This document shows positions 31,197 to 54,807 of a stretch of DNA of 64,000 nt, one piece after another. Position 1 is the stretch's first letter. Each line of letters begins with the position of its first letter. Source of the DNA: Cyclobacteriaceae bacterium (GTDB lineage: Bacteria > Bacteroidota > Bacteroidia > Cytophagales > Cyclobacteriaceae). The notes under the pieces are model-generated. The model was given only the letters and a program-made list of their open reading frames with translations. It did no database searches and had not been told where the DNA came from. The stretch covers positions 1 to 64,000 of the forward strand of contig JANQKF010000004.1 in NCBI GenBank assembly GCA_028281285.1, in the 5' to 3' direction. The position numbers and the translations under genes are program-made.

Positions 31197-32120
31197 CTAC
31201 CAATCCGGCTTATCGGATCTTTTTCGTTTTGAGGCTTTACGCTTGTTCTGCTGAACGTACTGGATTTCGTTGTTCTTCATTGCCTCAAGTATCATTTGAG
31301 CCTTCTCAGGGCTGATGTTCATCTCCTTCAACTTTTCCTTCACTTTCTCCATAGGATCTTGTTCCTGAGGCTGTTCCTGCTGTTGTTGATCTTGCTTTTG
31401 CTCTTGTTGCTGTTGCTGTTCCTGCTTTTGATCCTTCTGGTCCTTTTGATCTTTCTGATCCTTATTTTTTTCGTCTTTGTTCTTTTGATCCTGATCTTTT
31501 TGATCTTCGTTTTTTTGATCCTGCTTCTGATCTTGTTTTTGCTCCTGTTCCTGTTGTTCTTGTTGCCTTTTTAGTTTTTTGAGCAATTCGTAGTTGTATC
31601 GGGCCAATTCATTCTGTGGGTTTTTCTTCAATGCGCCCTTAAAATTTGCCAGCGAAGACTGAATGAATGATTCCCGTTCATCAGGAGATTGTTCGCTCAT
31701 TTTGTAAGAAATAATCCCCATTTGGTTAAGTGCAGAGGAGGCGATTGTAGGATCAACGGCATCTTTCAAAGCTTTATAGTTGGATTCAGCGATATCAAAG
31801 TACCTGAGTTTATCGCTCATGGCGCTCAGAGTAGCAGAGTCTCTAACCTGAGTCTTGCCAGAACTGATATCACTCATCAAACCTAAATTATCTCCTCCAT
31901 AGGAAATAAGGTAGGCAGCATTCGCCAGATTTAATCGAGCATCTTCATCGTTCACATCTAATGAATCTAAGAGCTGTCCATAACTTTGAATAGCCATTTC
32001 GTATTCGCCATTGTCAAAGGCTTCTCTGGCATCTTTCTTCAGTCGATTGGACTTGGCAATCTTTGTCACCGGGTCGGTGACACTCGTAAAGAGTAAAAAT
32101 AGGGTTAGAATATACTTCAT
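31197..32120 (-). CDS. BatC-like TPR protein with Q/K/D/E-rich tract
   Basis: 307 residues: signal peptide (1-16), TPR-like helices (about 25-190; AREAFDNGEYEMAIQSYGQL and FKGALKKNPQNELARYNYEL), then a low-complexity tract (about 195-255) made of repeated QKDQK and EQQQQ units, and a conserved end, MNISPEKAQMILEAMKNNE. The layout is that of BatC/BatE proteins of the Bacteroides aerotolerance locus. Its ATG overlaps the stop of the VWA gene (ATGA). Probably periplasmic, held near the VWA membrane partner. The role in stress tolerance is from family knowledge. Confidence 0.85.
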   Translation of the reverse strand: MKYILTLFLLFTSVTDPVTKIAKSNRLKKDAREAFDNGEYEMAIQSYGQLLDSLDVNDEDARLNLANAAYLISYGGDNLGLMSDISSGKTQVRDSATLSAMSDKLRYFDIAESNYKALKDAVDPTIASSALNQMGIISYKMSEQSPDERESFIQSSLANFKGALKKNPQNELARYNYELLKKLKRQQEQQEQEQKQDQKQDQKNEDQKDQDQKNKDEKNKDQKDQKDQKDQKQEQQQQQEQKQDQQQQEQPQEQDPMEKVKEKLKEMNISPEKAQMILEAMKNNEIQYVQQNKRKASKRKRSDKPDW

Positions 32121-48076: not shown

Positions 48077-49132
48077 TTATTGCCTGATTGACTCCACGTA
48101 TTCCGAGGGGCGCATTCCTGTCATTTCCTTGAAAACTCGCTGGAAAGTCGTTTTAGAGTTAAAGCCGCATTCGAGGGCCAGTCCAGCCAGTGTCAACTGA
48201 GGTGTGTGGACCACCTTTTCCTTGAATTCCTGAACTCTGTATTCATTGACGAATGAATAGAAGTTTTTCCCCAACTCCTGGTTCAAAGCTTCCGAAATTT
48301 GCTTTGCGGTGATGTTGAGTCTGTCTTCCAGAAACCGAACGTTAAGATCGGGGAGGAGGTAGAGTTTGTCCTTTTCCATACACTGTAAAAGGCCCTCCAA
48401 ATGTTTTTGTGCGATCGTGTTGGAGGTTGGAATAGTAGTGGAGGCAGTTCCCTTACTAATAATTTCCGGTTGACGTAAACCACCAATACCTAACCAGAAG
48501 ATGATTGTGGTGAATATAAATTGACCAATAACCCGGTCATTAAAATCGAGGCCAATGGTGAGTAATAACAGCCAAAGAATGAGCGAAATGGGCAGGAGAA
48601 GCAAAAACAAAAACGAGAGTTGATTTAGCCAATTCAAGGTCTGACGCTCCACATTGGAAAGTTTTGATTTCAGCTCTTTCTGATATGCTAAAATTTCCTT
48701 TCTGGACTTCCATAGATAAAAGGCAATTACAAAAAGGGAAGCGAATCCGATTTTGTCTAATAGTTCATGAATAGGTGGTTCGTAATCGGACCGACCGAAA
48801 ATCCAGTGATAAATGCTGTGGAGATAATCTCCTATAAACCACCACAAATGTTTTAGATTGACTGGTTGGTCTTTTGTCAGTGATTTTACATACAGATAAA
48901 GAGTAGGCCCCAAACCAAAACCTATTCCAAAAGGGAGAATATGAAGGACTGGGTACTGATTAAAGTATCCGTTGACAAGGATCCAGGACAGTACTAGGTT
49001 AAGCCCAATGGAAAAGGTCAGCAGTGCCAGAAAACGATTCGCCTTTCTGTTGACTCTTGAGAAGAACAGTGTACCTGTGAAAATCAGTGCCGCAAGGCCG
49101 CCTGCAAAAGTCAAATAAGGATTCCAGTCCAT
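48077..49132 (-). CDS. Membrane-anchored AraC-type regulator
   Basis: 351 residues. The N-terminal two thirds have about seven membrane helices (first MDWNPYLTFAGGLAALIFTG; last near 205-220). The C-terminal part (about 250-348) is an AraC helix-turn-helix domain: LNITAKQISEALNQELGKNF, then TLAGLALECGFNSKTTFQRV and FKEMTGMRPSEYV. Such 7TM-AraC proteins are common one-component sensors in Bacteroidota. It lies beside the serine hydrolase (85-base gap, same strand), which may be a target. The signal is unknown. Confidence 0.9.
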   Translation of the reverse strand: MDWNPYLTFAGGLAALIFTGTLFFSRVNRKANRFLALLTFSIGLNLVLSWILVNGYFNQYPVLHILPFGIGFGLGPTLYLYVKSLTKDQPVNLKHLWWFIGDYLHSIYHWIFGRSDYEPPIHELLDKIGFASLFVIAFYLWKSRKEILAYQKELKSKLSNVERQTLNWLNQLSFLFLLLLPISLILWLLLLTIGLDFNDRVIGQFIFTTIIFWLGIGGLRQPEIISKGTASTTIPTSNTIAQKHLEGLLQCMEKDKLYLLPDLNVRFLEDRLNITAKQISEALNQELGKNFYSFVNEYRVQEFKEKVVHTPQLTLAGLALECGFNSKTTFQRVFKEMTGMRPSEYVESIRQ

Positions 49133-49270: not shown

Positions 49271-49277
49271 AATTCTG

Positions 49278-49352
49278 TCGGGGTGGCAGGATTCGAACCT
49301 GCGACCTCCTCGTCCCAAACGAGGCGCGATAACCGGGCTACGCTACACCCCG
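49278..49352 (-). tRNA. tRNA-Pro (anticodon TGG)
   Basis: Cloverleaf on the minus strand: acceptor CGGGGTG / CACCCCG, anticodon arm CCTCG-TTTGGGA-CGAGG with TGG at 49315-49317, T arm GCAGG-TTCGAAT-CCTGC. No encoded CCA. Confidence 0.97.
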
Positions 49353-49461
49353 ATCCGTAATCGGAGTGCAAATATAGAGGGAAATTTTTATTGGCAATAG
49401 AAGAGCGTAAAGAAAATTCTCAGAACTCAAGATTTTTCGATTTTCTTCATTGTAGTCAATG

Positions 49462-50535
49462 TCAAATACTCTCAATCAAGGCAATTAGTAAGTCACTTGC
49501 ATGAGTATGAACCGCCTTTTCACTGATTTTGTAGGCATGGGCCTTGATCGCCTCCCAAAGTGTAGGTTTTGATTCCTTGAGTTCGGAAAGATCCTTTCGG
49601 AGTTGGTCTTCGCCATTGGTTTCTAGCTCATTGTCCAGAAAGGTAAAGAGCGGCTGCATGTCTTTATTCTCGAGGGCTTTGCTGGCCAGCTTGATAATCT
49701 CACTGGTATGTTCACGGCCAGCAATAAGCTGCTTGCTCAACTCACTTTGGAAATATTCTATTGTTGAAGCTTGTGAGGCAATAATCTGGTCCTTAGTGGT
49801 CAGGAGTTTGTTGGTGAATTCTAATTCTGTGGAAATATTCTGCAGCCTGAATTCCAATTGCATGATATCTAATGGATCTTCCAGGTATTCATTTACTGGT
49901 TTCTTACCAGTTACCACTAGTCCATAATCCTCCAGGGCTTTCTCGAACTTTTGTGTTTCACCATCTGGGGTTTCAATCTCCATGGTAACGGTATTTCCCT
50001 TTTGTCCAATTCGGACTGTGACATTATCATCCGGGTACTTTTGATTTAATGTTTCCTGGAAATAGGAGAGAATCTGAAGACCGGCCTGTTTATGCTCAGG
50101 AGAAAACTCGATTTCTCTTTTCAAGTCTATCCCCAAAGATCTGTACATAGTAATTTGAATCATTCTCCTATAACATTCAGCAAATAACTCCTTGTATCCT
50201 GGATAAGCTCCTGATGATTCTATAAACGTTTTGGGTTTTTCCTGGAACAGATAGAATGCTTTATTACCGGATTTATGGATGTCAACGATTAATTCATATT
50301 GTTTTTCGAAATCTGGGTAAGTATTCTCAACAATTAATTTGTTCTCCTTATAATTAGATTTTCCAGAGGTAATCATAATTAAACAACTGGCTGCTTCAGC
50401 GGGAATTCTGTCAGCTTCAGGGAGAATAAAATTGAGATCAATATGTGCTTCCCTTGCTAACTCATCAAGAGTCTCCTTTCTTTCATCTCCTAATAAATCG
50501 ATACAGTTTGCAATATATCTGGTATAGATTGCCAT
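49462..50535 (-). CDS. Unrecognised cytoplasmic protein with coiled coil
   Basis: 357 residues, no signal or membrane segment. Three parts are visible: an N-terminal alpha/beta region (1-145, TRYIANCIDLLGDERKETLD; IHKSGNKAFYLFQEKPKT); a small beta-rich module (about 150-205, YFQETLNQKYPDDNVTVRIG, METPDGETQKFEKALEDYGL); and a long helical coiled coil (about 215-285) ending in an acidic helical tail. The modular layout and a central small domain before a coiled coil recall sensor or adaptor proteins of bacterial conflict systems, but I do not recognise a family. First gene of the accessory stretch after tRNA-Pro. Confidence 0.75.
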   Translation of the reverse strand: MAIYTRYIANCIDLLGDERKETLDELAREAHIDLNFILPEADRIPAEAASCLIMITSGKSNYKENKLIVENTYPDFEKQYELIVDIHKSGNKAFYLFQEKPKTFIESSGAYPGYKELFAECYRRMIQITMYRSLGIDLKREIEFSPEHKQAGLQILSYFQETLNQKYPDDNVTVRIGQKGNTVTMEIETPDGETQKFEKALEDYGLVVTGKKPVNEYLEDPLDIMQLEFRLQNISTELEFTNKLLTTKDQIIASQASTIEYFQSELSKQLIAGREHTSEIIKLASKALENKDMQPLFTFLDNELETNGEDQLRKDLSELKESKPTLWEAIKAHAYKISEKAVHTHASDLLIALIESI

Positions 50536-50571
50536 GTAGAATTTAATTATTTAGCATTATTGATTACCTCA

Positions 50572-50583
50572 CATCCCCTCCCA
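50572..50583 (+). repeat. 12-base inverted repeat, left copy
   Basis: CATCCCCTCCCA; its exact reverse complement is at 52391-52402. The two face each other around a 1.8 kb segment with three plus-strand genes of unknown function. Confidence 0.45.
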
Positions 50584-50725
50584 ATAGTGTACAATTAGAC
50601 TAAAATGTAACGATTCATGGTGGCTTTTGAAAATCTTACTCAATCACTCTAAATAATCAACAGTTCAATATGGCTTGAGGAAAGTGGCATTGAAGATTGA
50701 AATTATCCTATTAACTTGATTAATA

Positions 50726-51289
50726 ATGGACACCGAAATCATTGTTGCACTGATCACCTCCGGAGTAGCTCTTATTGCCAGTGGGATTAGTATTTATATA
50801 TCCAAGACTTCCGAAAAGGCCAGAAGGGAAACCGAGATCGAGTTGGAGAAGGTGAGATCGAATCTTGAATTGGAAAGGTTAGACGCATTAGAAAAAAGGA
50901 AAATTAACCGTGAGCTCAGAGAAAAATTTGAAGGCCTTGTAACCGATTTGCGGGAAAAAGCTAAGAGTTCCCTGTTGCTTGTGACTGATTCAAAAACTCG
51001 GTTTAAATCTGAGAAACCGGTTGAGTGTATGGAAAAATTACAAAGGTCAGTGGACTCGTTTACTGAAATTCAGGACTTGATTATTAATGCCAATAGGTTT
51101 ATTTCGAATTCATTATTTGATCAATTAAGGAAATCCACATCTCCAATATTGGATTTGTATAGATTAATGAAATCTCGAGAGAACATTACAGAGGAAAACC
51201 TTGATTCCTTGAGGGCTGAATATCTTGAGTTAACCGTTTTCCTTGCGACAGTGCAGTTTGACCAGGACAGCACCATTTTCTCAGAATAA
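50726..51289 (+). CDS. Membrane-anchored coiled-coil protein
   Basis: 187 residues. One N-terminal membrane helix (about 5-26, IVALITSGVALIASGISIYI) is followed by a charged coiled coil (SEKARRETEIELEKVRSNLE, to about 75) and a helical C-terminal domain with YLELTVFLATVQFD near the end. Topology suggests that the bulk is cytoplasmic. No family is recognised. It lies inside the accessory stretch, between inverted repeats, and no catalytic motif is seen. Confidence 0.7.
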   Translation: MDTEIIVALITSGVALIASGISIYISKTSEKARRETEIELEKVRSNLELERLDALEKRKINRELREKFEGLVTDLREKAKSSLLLVTDSKTRFKSEKPVECMEKLQRSVDSFTEIQDLIINANRFISNSLFDQLRKSTSPILDLYRLMKSRENITEENLDSLRAEYLELTVFLATVQFDQDSTIFSE

Positions 51290-51316
51290 GCTCAACTTCA
51301 ATTCACAAAACTTCCG

Positions 51317-51494
51317 TATATTTGATATGTCGTACCAGACATTTATTAAACTTAATTAGACGAGTATGTCATTCATTTTGAGGGTAAAAAAAGAAATGGG
51401 GTAGTTGCGTCCTACGCAATGGCTTGTCTATTGAATAGGTGTCTTGGTACGACAGCGCAGGCTACCCCTATTTTGTAATTAAAACTGTCGTACC
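51317..51494 (+). promoter_or_regulatory. Structured leader with three copies of TGTCGTACCA
   Basis: TATATTTG at 51317-51324 is a -7 box, so the transcript should begin near 51330. Copies of the 10-mer lie at 51328-51337 (+), 51445-51454 (inverted) and 51486-51495 (+, overlapping the ATG at 51495). The middle copy can pair with the first (14 pairs, one bulge, using 51328-51341 and 51440-51454) or with the last (11 pairs, hiding the start codon). Between them are GGGGTAG/CTACCCC (51398-51404, 51462-51468) and the hairpin TTGCGT-CCT-ACGCAA (51405-51419). A candidate attenuator or translational switch. Confidence 0.6.
51366..51404 (+). CDS. Possible 12-residue leader peptide
   Basis: ATG TCA ... 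GGG TAG encodes MSFILRVKKEMG inside the leader. Its stop codon lies within the GGGGTAG strand of a stem, the arrangement seen in leader-peptide attenuators. It may equally be a chance ORF. Confidence 0.25.
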   Translation: MSFILRVKKEMG

Positions 51495-51749
51495 ATGACT
51501 AATTTCAAAAAGCTGCCCAAGGCAAAACTGATCAAATGCCTTGAGCTTCACACACAGCTTGATCAAAAGAATCAAGTAATCATTTCCAGTGTTCAGGAGT
51601 TGGATCGGTTAAAGAGCCCGGCACTTCGAGACTTACAACAACGGATCCTGGAGGATGCCGGCTTATCCTTTTCACGAGTAGCTGATTTTGTCTCATATCT
51701 TTACTTGGGATCCGGAAGCCATGGCCAGGTCCCTCGAGTTTTTGATTGA
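51495..51749 (+). CDS. Unrecognised small protein, probably interrupted by a frameshift
   Basis: 84 residues, helical and charged (LIKCLELHTQLDQKNQVIIS; LRDLQQRILEDAGLSFSRVA). After VSYLY the sequence turns into a low-quality tail (LGSGSHGQVPRVFD), while the +1 frame from TGG 51706 reads WDPEAMARSLEFLIDALFFS and continues for 45 sense codons to TAG at 51841-51843. Joining the frames gives about 115 residues of continuous amphipathic helix. No DNA-binding or catalytic motif is recognised. The start codon overlaps the third 10-mer of the leader. Confidence 0.6.
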   Translation: MTNFKKLPKAKLIKCLELHTQLDQKNQVIISSVQELDRLKSPALRDLQQRILEDAGLSFSRVADFVSYLYLGSGSHGQVPRVFD

Positions 51750-51843
51750 TGCGCTATTCTTCAGCGATATCCCCATTGATCAGGAAGAGAAGGAGCTGAT
51801 CATTCCCATTCTTGAGTTGAAACGTGATTTGAGAATTAGCTAG
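51721..51843 (+). CDS. Second-frame continuation of the 51495 gene, or a 40-residue overlapping ORF
   Basis: From ATG 51721 the frame reads MARSLEFLIDALFFSDIPID and ends ELKRDLRIS at TAG 51841-51843. It is acidic and helical, like the first part. It could be the C-terminus of the 51495 protein reached by a +1 frameshift, a frameshift mutation at the TT of 51705-51706, or an independent start. Confidence 0.45.
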   Translation: MARSLEFLIDALFFSDIPIDQEEKELIIPILELKRDLRIS

Positions 51844-51865
51844 GTCTAGCGAGTACTTCAAAAAA

Positions 51866-51909
51866 GAAAGCGCCCCAAGTGTATGGCATTACATCTTACA
51901 GGCGCTTTC
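51866..51909 (-). terminator. Long hairpin with T run on the minus strand
   Basis: GAAAGCGCC (51866-51874) and GGCGCTTTC (51901-51909) pair perfectly, with weaker inner pairing between AAGTGTA and TACATCTT. On the minus strand it is followed by TTTTTT; on the plus strand only by TTTCATATC. It probably ends the 51495 transcript or guards against antisense transcription. Confidence 0.5.
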
Positions 51910-51964
51910 ATATCTATACTAATGTATAGGCCAACAAATTATTGAAATCCTGCTATATTCCCAA

Positions 51965-52369
51965 ATGGAAATTTGGAGCCGGCAAAAAATCCGCACATTC
52001 GCCTTAAAACGTGACCTCAACCACCATATACTGCATCTGGTGACCAGGGCCAATGGAACCGTTGGTGTGCACAAGGATAATTTGAAACGATTGCTTAGTG
52101 ATGAACTTGACTATAAACCTCAAAAGCCAACTCTAATCACCCTGACTCGAATATTCAAACAATGGGAAATTCACGAAAGGATACTGGCCGGTGAGAGTAT
52201 TCCCGAAGATCCTGATTTCAATTGGGGACTTAGTAAGGTGCGAAATGTGCTTAATAGGGAATTACCACTTGATCCACTAAGGCCTGAGGTTGAAAGGTTA
52301 GTTCATGAGCTTGACAGATTGCGTGCCCTAATGACAAATGAAAAACCTCAGGTTAATGCGGAAAAATAA
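51965..52369 (+). CDS. Unrecognised helical protein
   Basis: 134 residues, basic N-terminus (MEIWSRQKIRTFALKRDLNH), helical throughout, no signal or membrane segment. VHKDNLKRLLSDELDYKPQK and LITLTRIFKQWEIHERILAG could form small helical bundles; the end LVHELDRLRALMTNE may be a short coiled coil. No catalytic motif is seen. It lies just inside the right-hand 12-base repeat and is convergent with the membrane operon at 52421. Function unknown. Confidence 0.6.
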   Translation: MEIWSRQKIRTFALKRDLNHHILHLVTRANGTVGVHKDNLKRLLSDELDYKPQKPTLITLTRIFKQWEIHERILAGESIPEDPDFNWGLSKVRNVLNRELPLDPLRPEVERLVHELDRLRALMTNEKPQVNAEK

Positions 52370-52390
52370 CTGAATAACTATTCGAATTGG

Positions 52391-52402
52391 TGGGAGGGGA
52401 TG
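52391..52402 (-). repeat. 12-base inverted repeat, right copy
   Basis: TGGGAGGGGATG, the reverse complement of 50572-50583. Confidence 0.45.
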
Positions 52403-52420
52403 AAATTGATTAAATAGGAC

Positions 52421-52810
52421 TCAAGCCTGCTTTCGGGTCAGTGCTTTATGGATGTCTGGTTCTAATTTGTCCAGTGCTTTTTGAACCACTGACCTGTTTG
52501 GTCTATCCGTATCTTTCCTCATCGCTCGTCTGAGGGTTTCAATTGGAAAATCCAGTTCAAGCTCCTGGTCCTTTTTTAATGCTGCCCAAATGCCATGCTC
52601 CCCCTGATACCTTTCTTCCAGTACCACCCACAGTCTGTCGCATGCTGCGTTATAACCAATCTCCTGTCGAACTATACTTACTTTCTTCTTATAAAAGTAG
52701 AGTAGGGCAGCGAACAGGAAGATCACAACGATCAGAATTGCAGCGGCTGTAAAAAATATCCAGCCGTTTATTTCTGGTGTGACATTGAAATTGTAGATGG
52801 GACCTTCCAT
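52421..52810 (-). CDS. Single-pass membrane protein with cytoplasmic helical domain
   Basis: 129 residues: a short N-terminus, one membrane helix at about 17-40 (WIFFTAAAILIVVIFLFAAL), then a charged helical domain (YNAACDRLWVVLEERYQGEH; IETLRRAMRKDTDRPNRSVV). Its start lies 43 bases inside the 3' end of the 7TM gene, so they are translationally coupled. No family is recognised. Last gene of a three-gene operon with the 7TM protein and the Cys-containing soluble protein. Confidence 0.65.
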   Translation of the reverse strand: MEGPIYNFNVTPEINGWIFFTAAAILIVVIFLFAALLYFYKKKVSIVRQEIGYNAACDRLWVVLEERYQGEHGIWAALKKDQELELDFPIETLRRAMRKDTDRPNRSVVQKALDKLEPDIHKALTRKQA

Positions 52811-53451
52811 AAGGCAATTGTAAGACTAATGAGATAAAGCCAGCCAATAATGTTGAATACTCCCCAATTGTTAAAGAATTGGGTGATATCCACCCTTATA
52901 AGAGTATTGGCAAGGCTGTTGTTCAGGATAGGGCCAACGTAAAACATGGCGATTCCAACTGACGCCCACAAGGCGGAACTATTGAAGATATTCACATAAC
53001 TCTGCCCCCTGGTCATTGTCAGATCAGCCGAGTGGCGTTTTATATGGATCATGGATCTGATTCCAAGAAATCCAAGAGTCAACCCGAGATAAACATTGGT
53101 CAACCCATTGTACTCTTCCAAGGACCGCAAAACGAATGCTTCGAGCGCCTGGACTATTGCAAATCCTACTAGCAGGATTGAAATAGGTTTTTGCCAATGG
53201 GGGAGTAATCGCATAAAAAAAATAAATGCCGGAACTGCAAAAAGTGCTGTGCCTACTGGAAGAAAAAACCAGTTAGGCCCAAAAAAATAGGCGGTGAGAA
53301 ACATGCCCCATTCCGCAATGAGCATGCAAAGTGTCAGATAGAATATCGCCTTGGTTACAGGGTTTAAGTTCTTCCACTTGATTAGTCCTACCATCACCGG
53401 CATGGGTGATAGTAGGACTTTCGAATAAACAAGAATTGCAATCCAGCTCAT
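52768..53451 (-). CDS. Seven-helix membrane protein of unknown function
   Basis: 227 residues from ATG 53449-53451, two bases after the previous stop; an upstream start to 53484 would overlap that gene. About seven membrane helices are evident, among them WIAILVYSKVLLSPMPVMVG, AIFYLTLCMLIAEWGMFLTA, FLPVGTALFAVPAFIFF and NIIGWLYLISLTIALW. The size and layout resemble sensor-type 7TM domains found in Bacteroidota, but here no kinase or HTH is attached. The partner could be the single-pass protein encoded downstream. Confidence 0.7.
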   Translation of the reverse strand: MSWIAILVYSKVLLSPMPVMVGLIKWKNLNPVTKAIFYLTLCMLIAEWGMFLTAYFFGPNWFFLPVGTALFAVPAFIFFMRLLPHWQKPISILLVGFAIVQALEAFVLRSLEEYNGLTNVYLGLTLGFLGIRSMIHIKRHSADLTMTRGQSYVNIFNSSALWASVGIAMFYVGPILNNSLANTLIRVDITQFFNNWGVFNIIGWLYLISLTIALWKVPSTISMSHQK

Positions 53452-53453
53452 AA

Positions 53454-53972
53454 TTAATCGTCTCCTGGACAAGTGAGAGGGCATAGGGTGCCACCATTTG
53501 GTGTTCCTTCTTCATCAGCATCTTTACCTCCGGAATAATCTGAAGGACCGAGAATTGTATTTCTGCCCTGGTCGTCAATTGCATTGGAGAATACCACATC
53601 TTCATCCTGTGCACTGATCCAGGGTAGCGCATAGTCTACACCCCAAAACACGCCTGCAGTTACCCCGGGATTCTTTTCTTTAAAACTGTTGAAATCTTTG
53701 ACCGTTTGTTCATCCTTGTCAACCCACGTTCCTTCCTCGGTGACAAATCCTACTCCAATGTATTCATTATCGCCATTCAGACAATTTAAGAGTCCAATGG
53801 CTGACGCACCATTGCCCATAGCTCTCTTAATTCCGTTTACAAGATTATCTCTATTCAAACTGAACTTGTCTGCCCTGTCAGGGTATTTGTTACAGTACTT
53901 TTGACATTCACCCTGAGCTTTCGTGTTAGAAATGTTGTGTCCTGCATCTGCAGGAAATTTTGATTCTGCCAT
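53454..53972 (-). CDS. Soluble Cys-containing protein, unrecognised
   Basis: 172 residues, no signal peptide, acidic, rich in Gly, Asp and Asn. Cysteines occur as CQKYC (23-27), one near 63 (LLNCLNG) and CPLTCPGDD at the very end. The middle reads NEYIGVGFVTEEGTWVDKDE and GVTAGVFWGVDYALPWIS. No domain is recognised. It begins a three-gene unit with two membrane proteins (two-base gap to the next gene), which suggests that it acts with them, perhaps as the soluble part of a sensory or transport complex. The assignment stays open. Confidence 0.6.
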   Translation of the reverse strand: MAESKFPADAGHNISNTKAQGECQKYCNKYPDRADKFSLNRDNLVNGIKRAMGNGASAIGLLNCLNGDNEYIGVGFVTEEGTWVDKDEQTVKDFNSFKEKNPGVTAGVFWGVDYALPWISAQDEDVVFSNAIDDQGRNTILGPSDYSGGKDADEEGTPNGGTLCPLTCPGDD

Positions 53973-54098
53973 ACTTTTTATAGTTACTAGTTACACATAT
54001 ACATGATAAGATAGTAATCATAAGGGAAACATGGGTAGCAACATCCATTATTCATGAAGGAATCCTATGGTTTTTGGAAAAACACAATTTTTTTATCG

Positions 54099-54117
54099 CG
54101 GGACGAGGGTGGGACAA
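54099..54117 (+). repeat. G-rich direct repeat, copy A
   Basis: CGGGACGAGGGTGGGACAA; copy B at 54139-54157 differs at two positions. The spacing is exactly 40 bases. Confidence 0.6.
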
Positions 54118-54138
54118 GCTATTTTTTACAAAAAAACC

Positions 54139-54157
54139 CGGGACGGGGGCGGGACAA
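54139..54157 (+). repeat. G-rich direct repeat, copy B
   Basis: CGGGACGGGGGCGGGACAA, 17 of 19 identical to copy A. Confidence 0.6.
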
Positions 54158-54394
54158 ATTGGTACCAGATCGGTACGAAAAATTATCAAAAACAGTGTTT
54201 GGAGGTAATGGGGGCTGTTTTTTTTAGATTGTTTCGAATTCCGTTCCAGGGATTTTTACCTCTCTCGAGGTAACCACGAACAATAAGGTCGTTTGTCATG
54301 GATCTCAATTTTGTCAGATCGTTATTCCTGGTTCGGTTACTAACACCTTTCTGCTTTTAGCCTTTGTTGGTGTTGTCACCGACAAGACCATGTT

Positions 54395-54417
54395 GGGATT
54401 GCTTACGCGATCCCTGA
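54395..54417. repeat. Hairpin repeat element, copy 1
   Basis: GGGATTGCTTRCGCGATCCC (R = A here) followed by TGA. The sequence folds on itself: GGGATTGC pairs with GCGATCCC (one G-T). 22 of 23 bases match copy 2. Confidence 0.6.
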
Positions 54418-54576
54418 TGGAGCCCTGCAAAAGCCCCCTCCTCATTTGATTCGGAAACCTTTTTTGATTCTGGTGATTTAGGATAAACCCTAATCCCCTG
54501 AGCTAATTTCCTTTCGTCATTTCGAACGGATGTGAGAAATCTCCTTATTAGGTTCACTAAATTTAGTTCAAGGACG

Positions 54577-54599
54577 GGGATTGCTTGCGCGATCCCTGA
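54577..54599. repeat. Hairpin repeat element, copy 2
   Basis: Same element with R = G, in the same orientation 182 bases from copy 1. REP-like extragenic element. Confidence 0.6.
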
Positions 54600-54690
54600 G
54601 TGGGTACCCAGCAACAAAGCCCTGAGGAGCTGTGCTCCAGAGTTCTTTTTTTATCCAGTCTTATTCAAGCAAGCTTGAGTCGACCGCATA

Positions 54691-54716
54691 AAAAAAGTCC
54701 TGCATTGCAGGACTTT
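54691..54716 (-). terminator. Terminator of tRNA-Ser
   Basis: AAAGTCCTG and CAGGACTTT pair around CATTG. On the minus strand a T run follows, 4 bases after the tRNA end. Confidence 0.85.
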
Positions 54717-54719
54717 GTT

Positions 54720-54807
<88 letters not shown>

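Follow-up and report, generated by a model that had tools for sequence, protein, structure and literature searches.

Genomic setting of the leader

The window, meaning the whole stretch of 64,000 nucleotides that was analysed, carries on its + strand an orphan open reading frame (ORF) of 84 codons (51495-51749, from the ORF list) that lies behind a leader containing the same ten-base word, TGTCGTACCA, in three copies. The locus is placed between a tRNA-Pro gene (49277-49352) and a tRNA-Ser gene (54720-54807), and the interval from 49277 to 54807 is filled with ORFs without a family match. Among these, the 134-aa ORF at 51965 had no match in Pfam, NCBIfam, PHROG or PADLOC and none in plasmids, GTDB contigs or IMG/VR; in 241 genomes of the order it was found in two, its own and one in which the matching stretch contains stops (E 0.003). 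In the one sister species that was compared (G276, L035:15531-18427), the same two tRNA genes enclose an AbiH gene (Pfam E 4.5e-34). Conserved genes lie beyond both tRNA genes in that species, and an FRG-domain protein (1.3e-20) is encoded just outside the interval, adjoining the tRNA-Pro gene. Judged from this single comparison, the interval between the tRNA-Pro and tRNA-Ser genes is likely to be a variable accessory or defence hotspot.

Other features of the interval deserve to be recorded. At 51860-51909, a 9-bp stem with a 26-base loop is followed by six T on the − strand; it resembles a terminator for − strand transcripts coming from the right, though the ORF at 51965-52369 is on the + strand, and it is missing from our terminator scan, which took short loops only. 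The start of a − strand ORF (52768-53484) contains an inverted repeat (53384-53419; 15 bp, 93%, loop of 6 bases), which suggests either a later start for that ORF or a regulatory hairpin there. A 19-nt G-rich repeat occurs twice at 54099-54157, before the tRNA-Ser gene; its copies are 89% alike and 40 apart.

A promoter-like element, TATATTTG, is located on the + strand at 51317-51324, directly before the first copy of the word. It fits TAnnTTTG, which is quoted as the −7 element for Bacteroidetes in PMC7366714. In the 300 bp upstream of the 49 ORFs of the window this motif has 15 matches, distributed so that 13 of the 49 have at least one, and the resulting density is 0.31 per ORF against 0.11 from the overall density. 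The longer word TTCCGTATATTTG (51312-51324) occurs four times in the genome and not once in the reversed control; as to its three remaining sites, an ATG follows closely on at least one, a possible start follows another, and at the third no gene start is evident. Scanning the region for promoters of the sigma-70 type gave nothing above expectation (7 found, 5.3 expected). From the sequence, we infer that transcription starts at or just before copy 1. The predicted leader counted from copy 1 would then measure ~165 nt, which is long compared with a median 5′ UTR of 32 nt in B. thetaiotaomicron (PMC7366714). A possible leader ORF of 10 codons (MSYQTFIKLN; 51327-51359, +) has its ATG overlapping copy 1; its codon score of −0.004 per codon is uninformative, and the ORF may be a chance occurrence.

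Three copies of a ten-base word

Copy 1 of TGTCGTACCA is found at 51328-51337 on the + strand, at the inferred transcript start, copy 2 at 51445-51454 in inverted orientation, that is, on the − strand, and copy 3 at 51486-51495 on the + strand, where its final A is the A of the ATG at 51495. All three are exact matches, and the coordinates and orientations given for them in an earlier, sequence-only reading were correct. In the whole genome (5,162,273 bases in 40 contigs) the word has seven exact copies, the three of the leader and four scattered singles. No second copy was present in the loci of ~3 kb around each of these four, and their near flanks (60-70 bases) showed no resemblance to the leader. 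None of 60 dinucleotide shuffles of the window contained a non-overlapping 10-mer triple within 200 bp, and the real window contains two, that of the leader and a same-orientation triple near 31430 which sits in a low-complexity ORF rich in Q, K and D. The arrangement of a word, its inverted form and the word again over a start codon was also scanned for, using 9-mers, a span of up to 300 and ORFs of at least 60 codons. In 464,000 bases, the window taken together with 20 samples of 20 kb drawn from five further contigs (~9% of the genome), it occurred once, at the leader. With one mismatch allowed, the window holds four matches to TGTCGTACCA against 1.76 expected, which indicates that what is unusual is the clustering of exact copies and not their count. 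The repeats are real and non-random.

The main rival to an RNA leader is a triple DNA operator, in which one repressor would occupy three sites, one at the transcript start, a second within the leader and a third over the start codon, perhaps with DNA looping, and the complementarity in the RNA would be a by-product. Every copy indeed lies within a near-dyad, TGTC-N6/7-GAC(A), with GACA in copies 1 and 2 and GACT in copy 3, although the dyad spacing is unequal, being 6 in copy 1 and 7 in copies 2 and 3. The start-to-start distances of 117, 41 and 158 bp correspond, for a helix of 10.5 bp per turn, to 11.1, 3.9 and 15.0 turns and would place the copies roughly on one face, and copy 1 follows directly after the promoter-like element. 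In contrast, no DNA-binding domain was recognised by Pfam in the ORFs at 50726, 51495, 51682 and 51965, and no second site of similar arrangement was found in the 464 kb sampled. An AraC-type gene is located nearby (48077-49132), but it is conserved in the sister species, where the DNA search with leader and gene gave no match. We consider the operator unlikely on balance, though by no means far-fetched.

Copies 1 and 3 repeat the word exactly and in the same direction but differ in their flanks. They might have arisen as a target duplication of 10 bp when an insert of 148 bp came to lie between the promoter and the start codon, copy 2 being incidental or part of the site choice. If the 148 bp are taken out, the promoter-like element stands ~20 bases before the ATG, in keeping with the Bacteroides median 5′ UTR of 32 nt quoted in PMC7366714. 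However, an inverted copy of its own target inside the insert would be unexpected, no terminal inverted repeats were seen by eye, and a second leader copy was found neither in the genome by DNA search nor in 176 genomes of the family by fold model. This origin of the repeats is, in our judgement, improbable.

Other explanations of the repeats were rejected. A dispersed repeat or mobile hairpin does not agree with the leader's sole strong match in the genome being itself and the other copies of the word being isolated singles. As for an invertible promoter segment, the promoter-like element is outside the inverted copies 1 and 2, and an inversion would not turn it. The ends of the hairpin, inspected by eye, are without the attC core, which speaks against an integron attC-like hairpin.

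A predicted long hairpin

Copies 1 and 2 are predicted to be joined in a long RNA hairpin (51328-51454, +). Its stem consists of 10 pairs, a 1-nt bulge and 9 pairs, two of which are U-G wobbles, and another stem lies beyond these; the sequence-only reading had noticed this pairing and had counted 14 pairs with one bulge, which underestimates a stem of 10 + 9 pairs. The region 51317-51510 folds with −53.1 kcal/mol (z −3.8), a stability that none of 200 shuffles reached, and the hairpin alone (51327-51455, +) with −46.4 kcal/mol (z −6.8, 0 of 300 shuffles as stable). The reverse complement of the hairpin, with −30.1 kcal/mol (z −4.7, 0 of 300 shuffles as stable), is unusually stable too, as any inverted DNA repeat would be. 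When the leader is extended to 51497, the z score is −3.7 on the + strand (1 of 300) and −1.5 on the − strand (18 of 300). In a rough ranking by z, with 40 shuffles each, of 370 segments of 130 nt from both strands between 46 and 58 kb, the segment at 51330 (+) came third. The higher ranks were taken by 54645 (−), which is the tRNA-Ser region, and by 53345 (+), which gave z −3.6 when it was re-scored with 200 shuffles.

Because an inverted repeat is complementary on both strands, the 10-mer by itself cannot separate the RNA from the DNA reading. The hairpin was therefore analysed with parts of it held constant. When copies 1 and 2 were fixed and the interior was shuffled, a fold as stable as the real one arose in 2 of 1000 cases for the + strand, against 61 for the − strand; these numbers rose to 7 and 189 of 1000 when 5 more bases were fixed on each side, and to 33 and 248 of 1000 with 21-base arms fixed. 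The arms beyond the 10-mer, whose limits were picked after the fold had been seen, gave −20.5 kcal/mol on the + strand (4 of 2000 shuffles) and −7.4 on the − strand (361 of 2000). The strand difference in interior pairing is due to U-G pairs, such as those of 51342-51343 with 51438-51439. The interior shuffles thus favour, with moderate strength, an RNA hairpin of the + strand between copies 1 and 2, and the strand-specific interior pairing backs the RNA reading independently of the word. An extra pairing of this kind between copies 1 and 2 is not needed by DNA sites, which argues against the triple operator.

The same stability, far above that of shuffles for the hairpin alone, would also suit an independent small RNA (51327-51455), for example an accessory-island or defence RNA, for which the overlap with the start codon would be secondary. 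Some defence systems carry RNAs, and the corresponding interval of the sister species holds the AbiH gene. Such a small RNA would nevertheless leave the position of copy 3 on the ATG unexplained; moreover, no Rfam match was obtained and no + strand terminator-like site was found behind the hairpin. We give this possibility little weight.

Alternative folds and access to the start codon

Returning to the RNA leader, copy 2 can also pair with copy 3, by 11 contiguous pairs and, beyond one U-U mismatch, 3 more; the sequence-only reading had reported the 11. The two predicted pairings are mutually exclusive and the second would cover the start codon, so that the earlier proposal of exclusive pairings, one of them hiding the start, agrees with what is present in the sequence. 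For 51326-51530, the energy was −57.1 kcal/mol for the free fold, −57.0 with copy 1:copy 2 forced, −54.0 with copy 2:copy 3 forced and −51.0 with the 51398/51462 stem forced. The equilibrium probabilities of the central pair were 0.9987, 0.0012 and 4.5e-6 for these three pairings, respectively, and in ensemble energy the copy 2:copy 3 state lies 4.4 kcal/mol above the copy 1:copy 2 state. Folding thus bore out the existence of alternative folds, but the best of them is copy 1:copy 2 and not the one that blocks the start. The two further stems described earlier differ in standing. The small hairpin at 51405-51419 (+) lies inside the long hairpin and is part of the predicted default fold, whereas the 7-pair stem (51398-51404/51462-51468, +), though real, is not; it belongs to a third, competing and much less favoured fold because it crosses both other pairings, barring a pseudoknot.

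In the copy 1:copy 2 state, the start codon is itself partly paired in a small local hairpin, with unpaired probabilities of 0.22, 0.10 and 0.01 for its bases. The stretch between copies 2 and 3 showed no pairing in addition to that of the word itself (977 of 1000 shuffles on the + strand and 757 of 1000 on the − strand were at least as stable). Opening the 25 bases around the start was calculated to cost 6.2 kcal/mol in the full leader, 9.5 kcal/mol if the RNA begins at 51338 and 8.2 if it begins at 51360; keeping 51327-51345 unpaired gave 8.9 kcal/mol, and keeping 51343-51372 unpaired gave 7.0. Without copy 1, the leader is predicted to move towards OFF by a modest 2 to 3 kcal/mol, and the start-blocking fold would presumably need copy 1 to be removed or occupied.

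The orphan gene and the search for relatives

Pfam, PHROG and PADLOC gave no match for the 84-codon ORF, and in NCBIfam nothing came near the cut-off. The codon usage of this ORF scores −0.024 bits per codon, which falls between the training genes, at 0.100 (sd 0.059, with −0.026 as the lowest), and the wrong frames, at −0.188 (sd 0.083); its tail (15 codons) scores −0.329. An overlapping open frame on the + strand (51682-51843), without a Pfam match, looks by codon score like the displaced second half of the gene, reaching 0.139 bits per codon from 51697 (48 codons). Codon usage therefore moves between frames, and a frame change near 51.70 kb (51690-51843) is likely, whether by an indel, an assembly error, decay or a programmed shift. 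The read-through product of 115 aa is predicted, with low confidence (mean pLDDT 60.6), to be all-helical. Pfam and PADLOC held nothing similar to it, and its two NCBIfam matches scored far under the cut-off. Comparison by sequence with solved structures yielded one weak match to a designed helix bundle (E 0.17) and four weak matches at E 0.22-0.99. Foldseek returned 138 matches at E <= 10, the best at 1.2, and matches as poor as these are expected of a model with that mean pLDDT.

No credible relative of the leader or of the gene was found in any collection searched, and the gene searches took in 18 other genomes of the genus. The 84-aa ORF was present only in its own genome among 295 genomes of the family and was absent from plasmids, GTDB contigs and IMG/VR. 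Searched as DNA, leader and gene matched two of the 295 family genomes, their own and one with a 27-base match inside the gene part, and nothing in phages or plasmids. The 115-aa read-through gave matches at E <= 0.01 in six of 390 family genomes, its own included. The other five are not counted as relatives: four are weak local matches (E 0.001-0.004) in open frames of 597-1462 aa and one (E 0.006) contains stops. Among 395 genomes of the phylum, the read-through was found in its own genome only. In IMG/VR, neither the 53-aa frame nor the paired-word pattern had a match. The leader fold model, for which the one leader sequence served twice as input and which was run with stricter filters, found only the own genome among 176 family genomes, with 4 of the 18 other members of the genus among the genomes listed.

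Comparison with known RNA classes and regulatory systems

An Rfam scan of 50500-52500 down to E 5 produced two weak matches, both far below the gathering scores. A known RNA family or riboswitch class was rejected on this ground, and the sequence-only reading had likewise recognised no known class. In the same region the terminator scan, which allowed short loops only, found no terminator-like site on the + strand and one on the − strand, inside the gene and outside the leader; transcription attenuation was rejected for want of a + strand site. Of the attenuator or riboswitch logic once suggested for the leader, the two-state anatomy is thus retained, whereas a transcription attenuator is not supported and a riboswitch has no Rfam match behind it.

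In translational attenuators of the erm type, a 5′ segment can free or trap a middle one that, left to itself, masks the beginning of the main gene. The leader is similar in that a 5′ segment would govern a start-covering middle segment, and in its possible short ORF at the 5′ end. It differs in using one word for all three segments, in a default predicted to be ON where that of erm is OFF, in a 10-codon leader ORF that is only putative and in having no resistance gene. The lac O1-O2-O3 sites are a multi-site operator with looping, and here too three near-identical near-dyad sites surround one promoter and start; in contrast to lac, copies 1 and 2 of the leader show additional pairing that depends on the strand, and no repressor was identified. 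With leaders of the mgtCBR type (PMC3641672), the leader shares its length, a short ORF and alternative stem-loops, but mgtCBR ends in transcription control and here there is no + strand terminator-like site. A thin search of the literature, by titles and the beginnings of abstracts, brought up no description of a three-copy leader arrangement, and absence from print is not claimed.

A candidate translational switch

The reading that we prefer, and to which we would give slightly less than an even chance, is that a cis-acting RNA leader controls translation of the orphan gene at 51495. Copy 2, once transcribed, would immediately pair with copy 1 and form the long hairpin, a step backed by the fold statistics. 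Copy 3 and the start codon would then emerge outside the hairpin, so that the predicted default is ON or partly ON. Were copy 1 unavailable, copy 2 would pair with copy 3 and cover the start codon, turning the gene OFF. Copy 1 might be lost through a bound protein or RNA, a ribosome on the 10-codon ORF, cleavage or a later transcription start, and a guess at its occupant would be the gene's own product, acting in feedback.

The RNA leader is favoured by the three exact copies, which go beyond chance, by the promoter-like element, by the z score of the hairpin, by the interior shuffles and by the cost of opening the start. It is weakened by the rarity of the OFF fold, by the start being partly paired in the ON state, by the seemingly broken or shifted frame, by the lack of a homologue in the searches and by a − strand hairpin that is itself unusually stable. 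For the RNA hairpin of copies 1 and 2 the support is moderately good, a switch to copy 2:copy 3 appears feasible and would fit the anatomy, and control of translation by the leader is possible. An RNA switch and a triple operator could also be true at once. A more specific version, which we regard as speculative and unlikely, is that the inverted copy in the middle changes partners between the transcript's 5′ end and the start codon; capture or trimming of the 5′ end would then shut off a gene of the accessory interval, which might serve in defence by sensing an attack on its own mRNA.

At present the leader is a well-defined candidate and not an established switch. If it worked as proposed, it would be a very economical RNA switch, in which one word is used three times and the 5′ end of the transcript serves as the sensor. 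If true, it would also mean that an orphan gene of an accessory interval carries a regulatory RNA that is invisible to homology-based searches.
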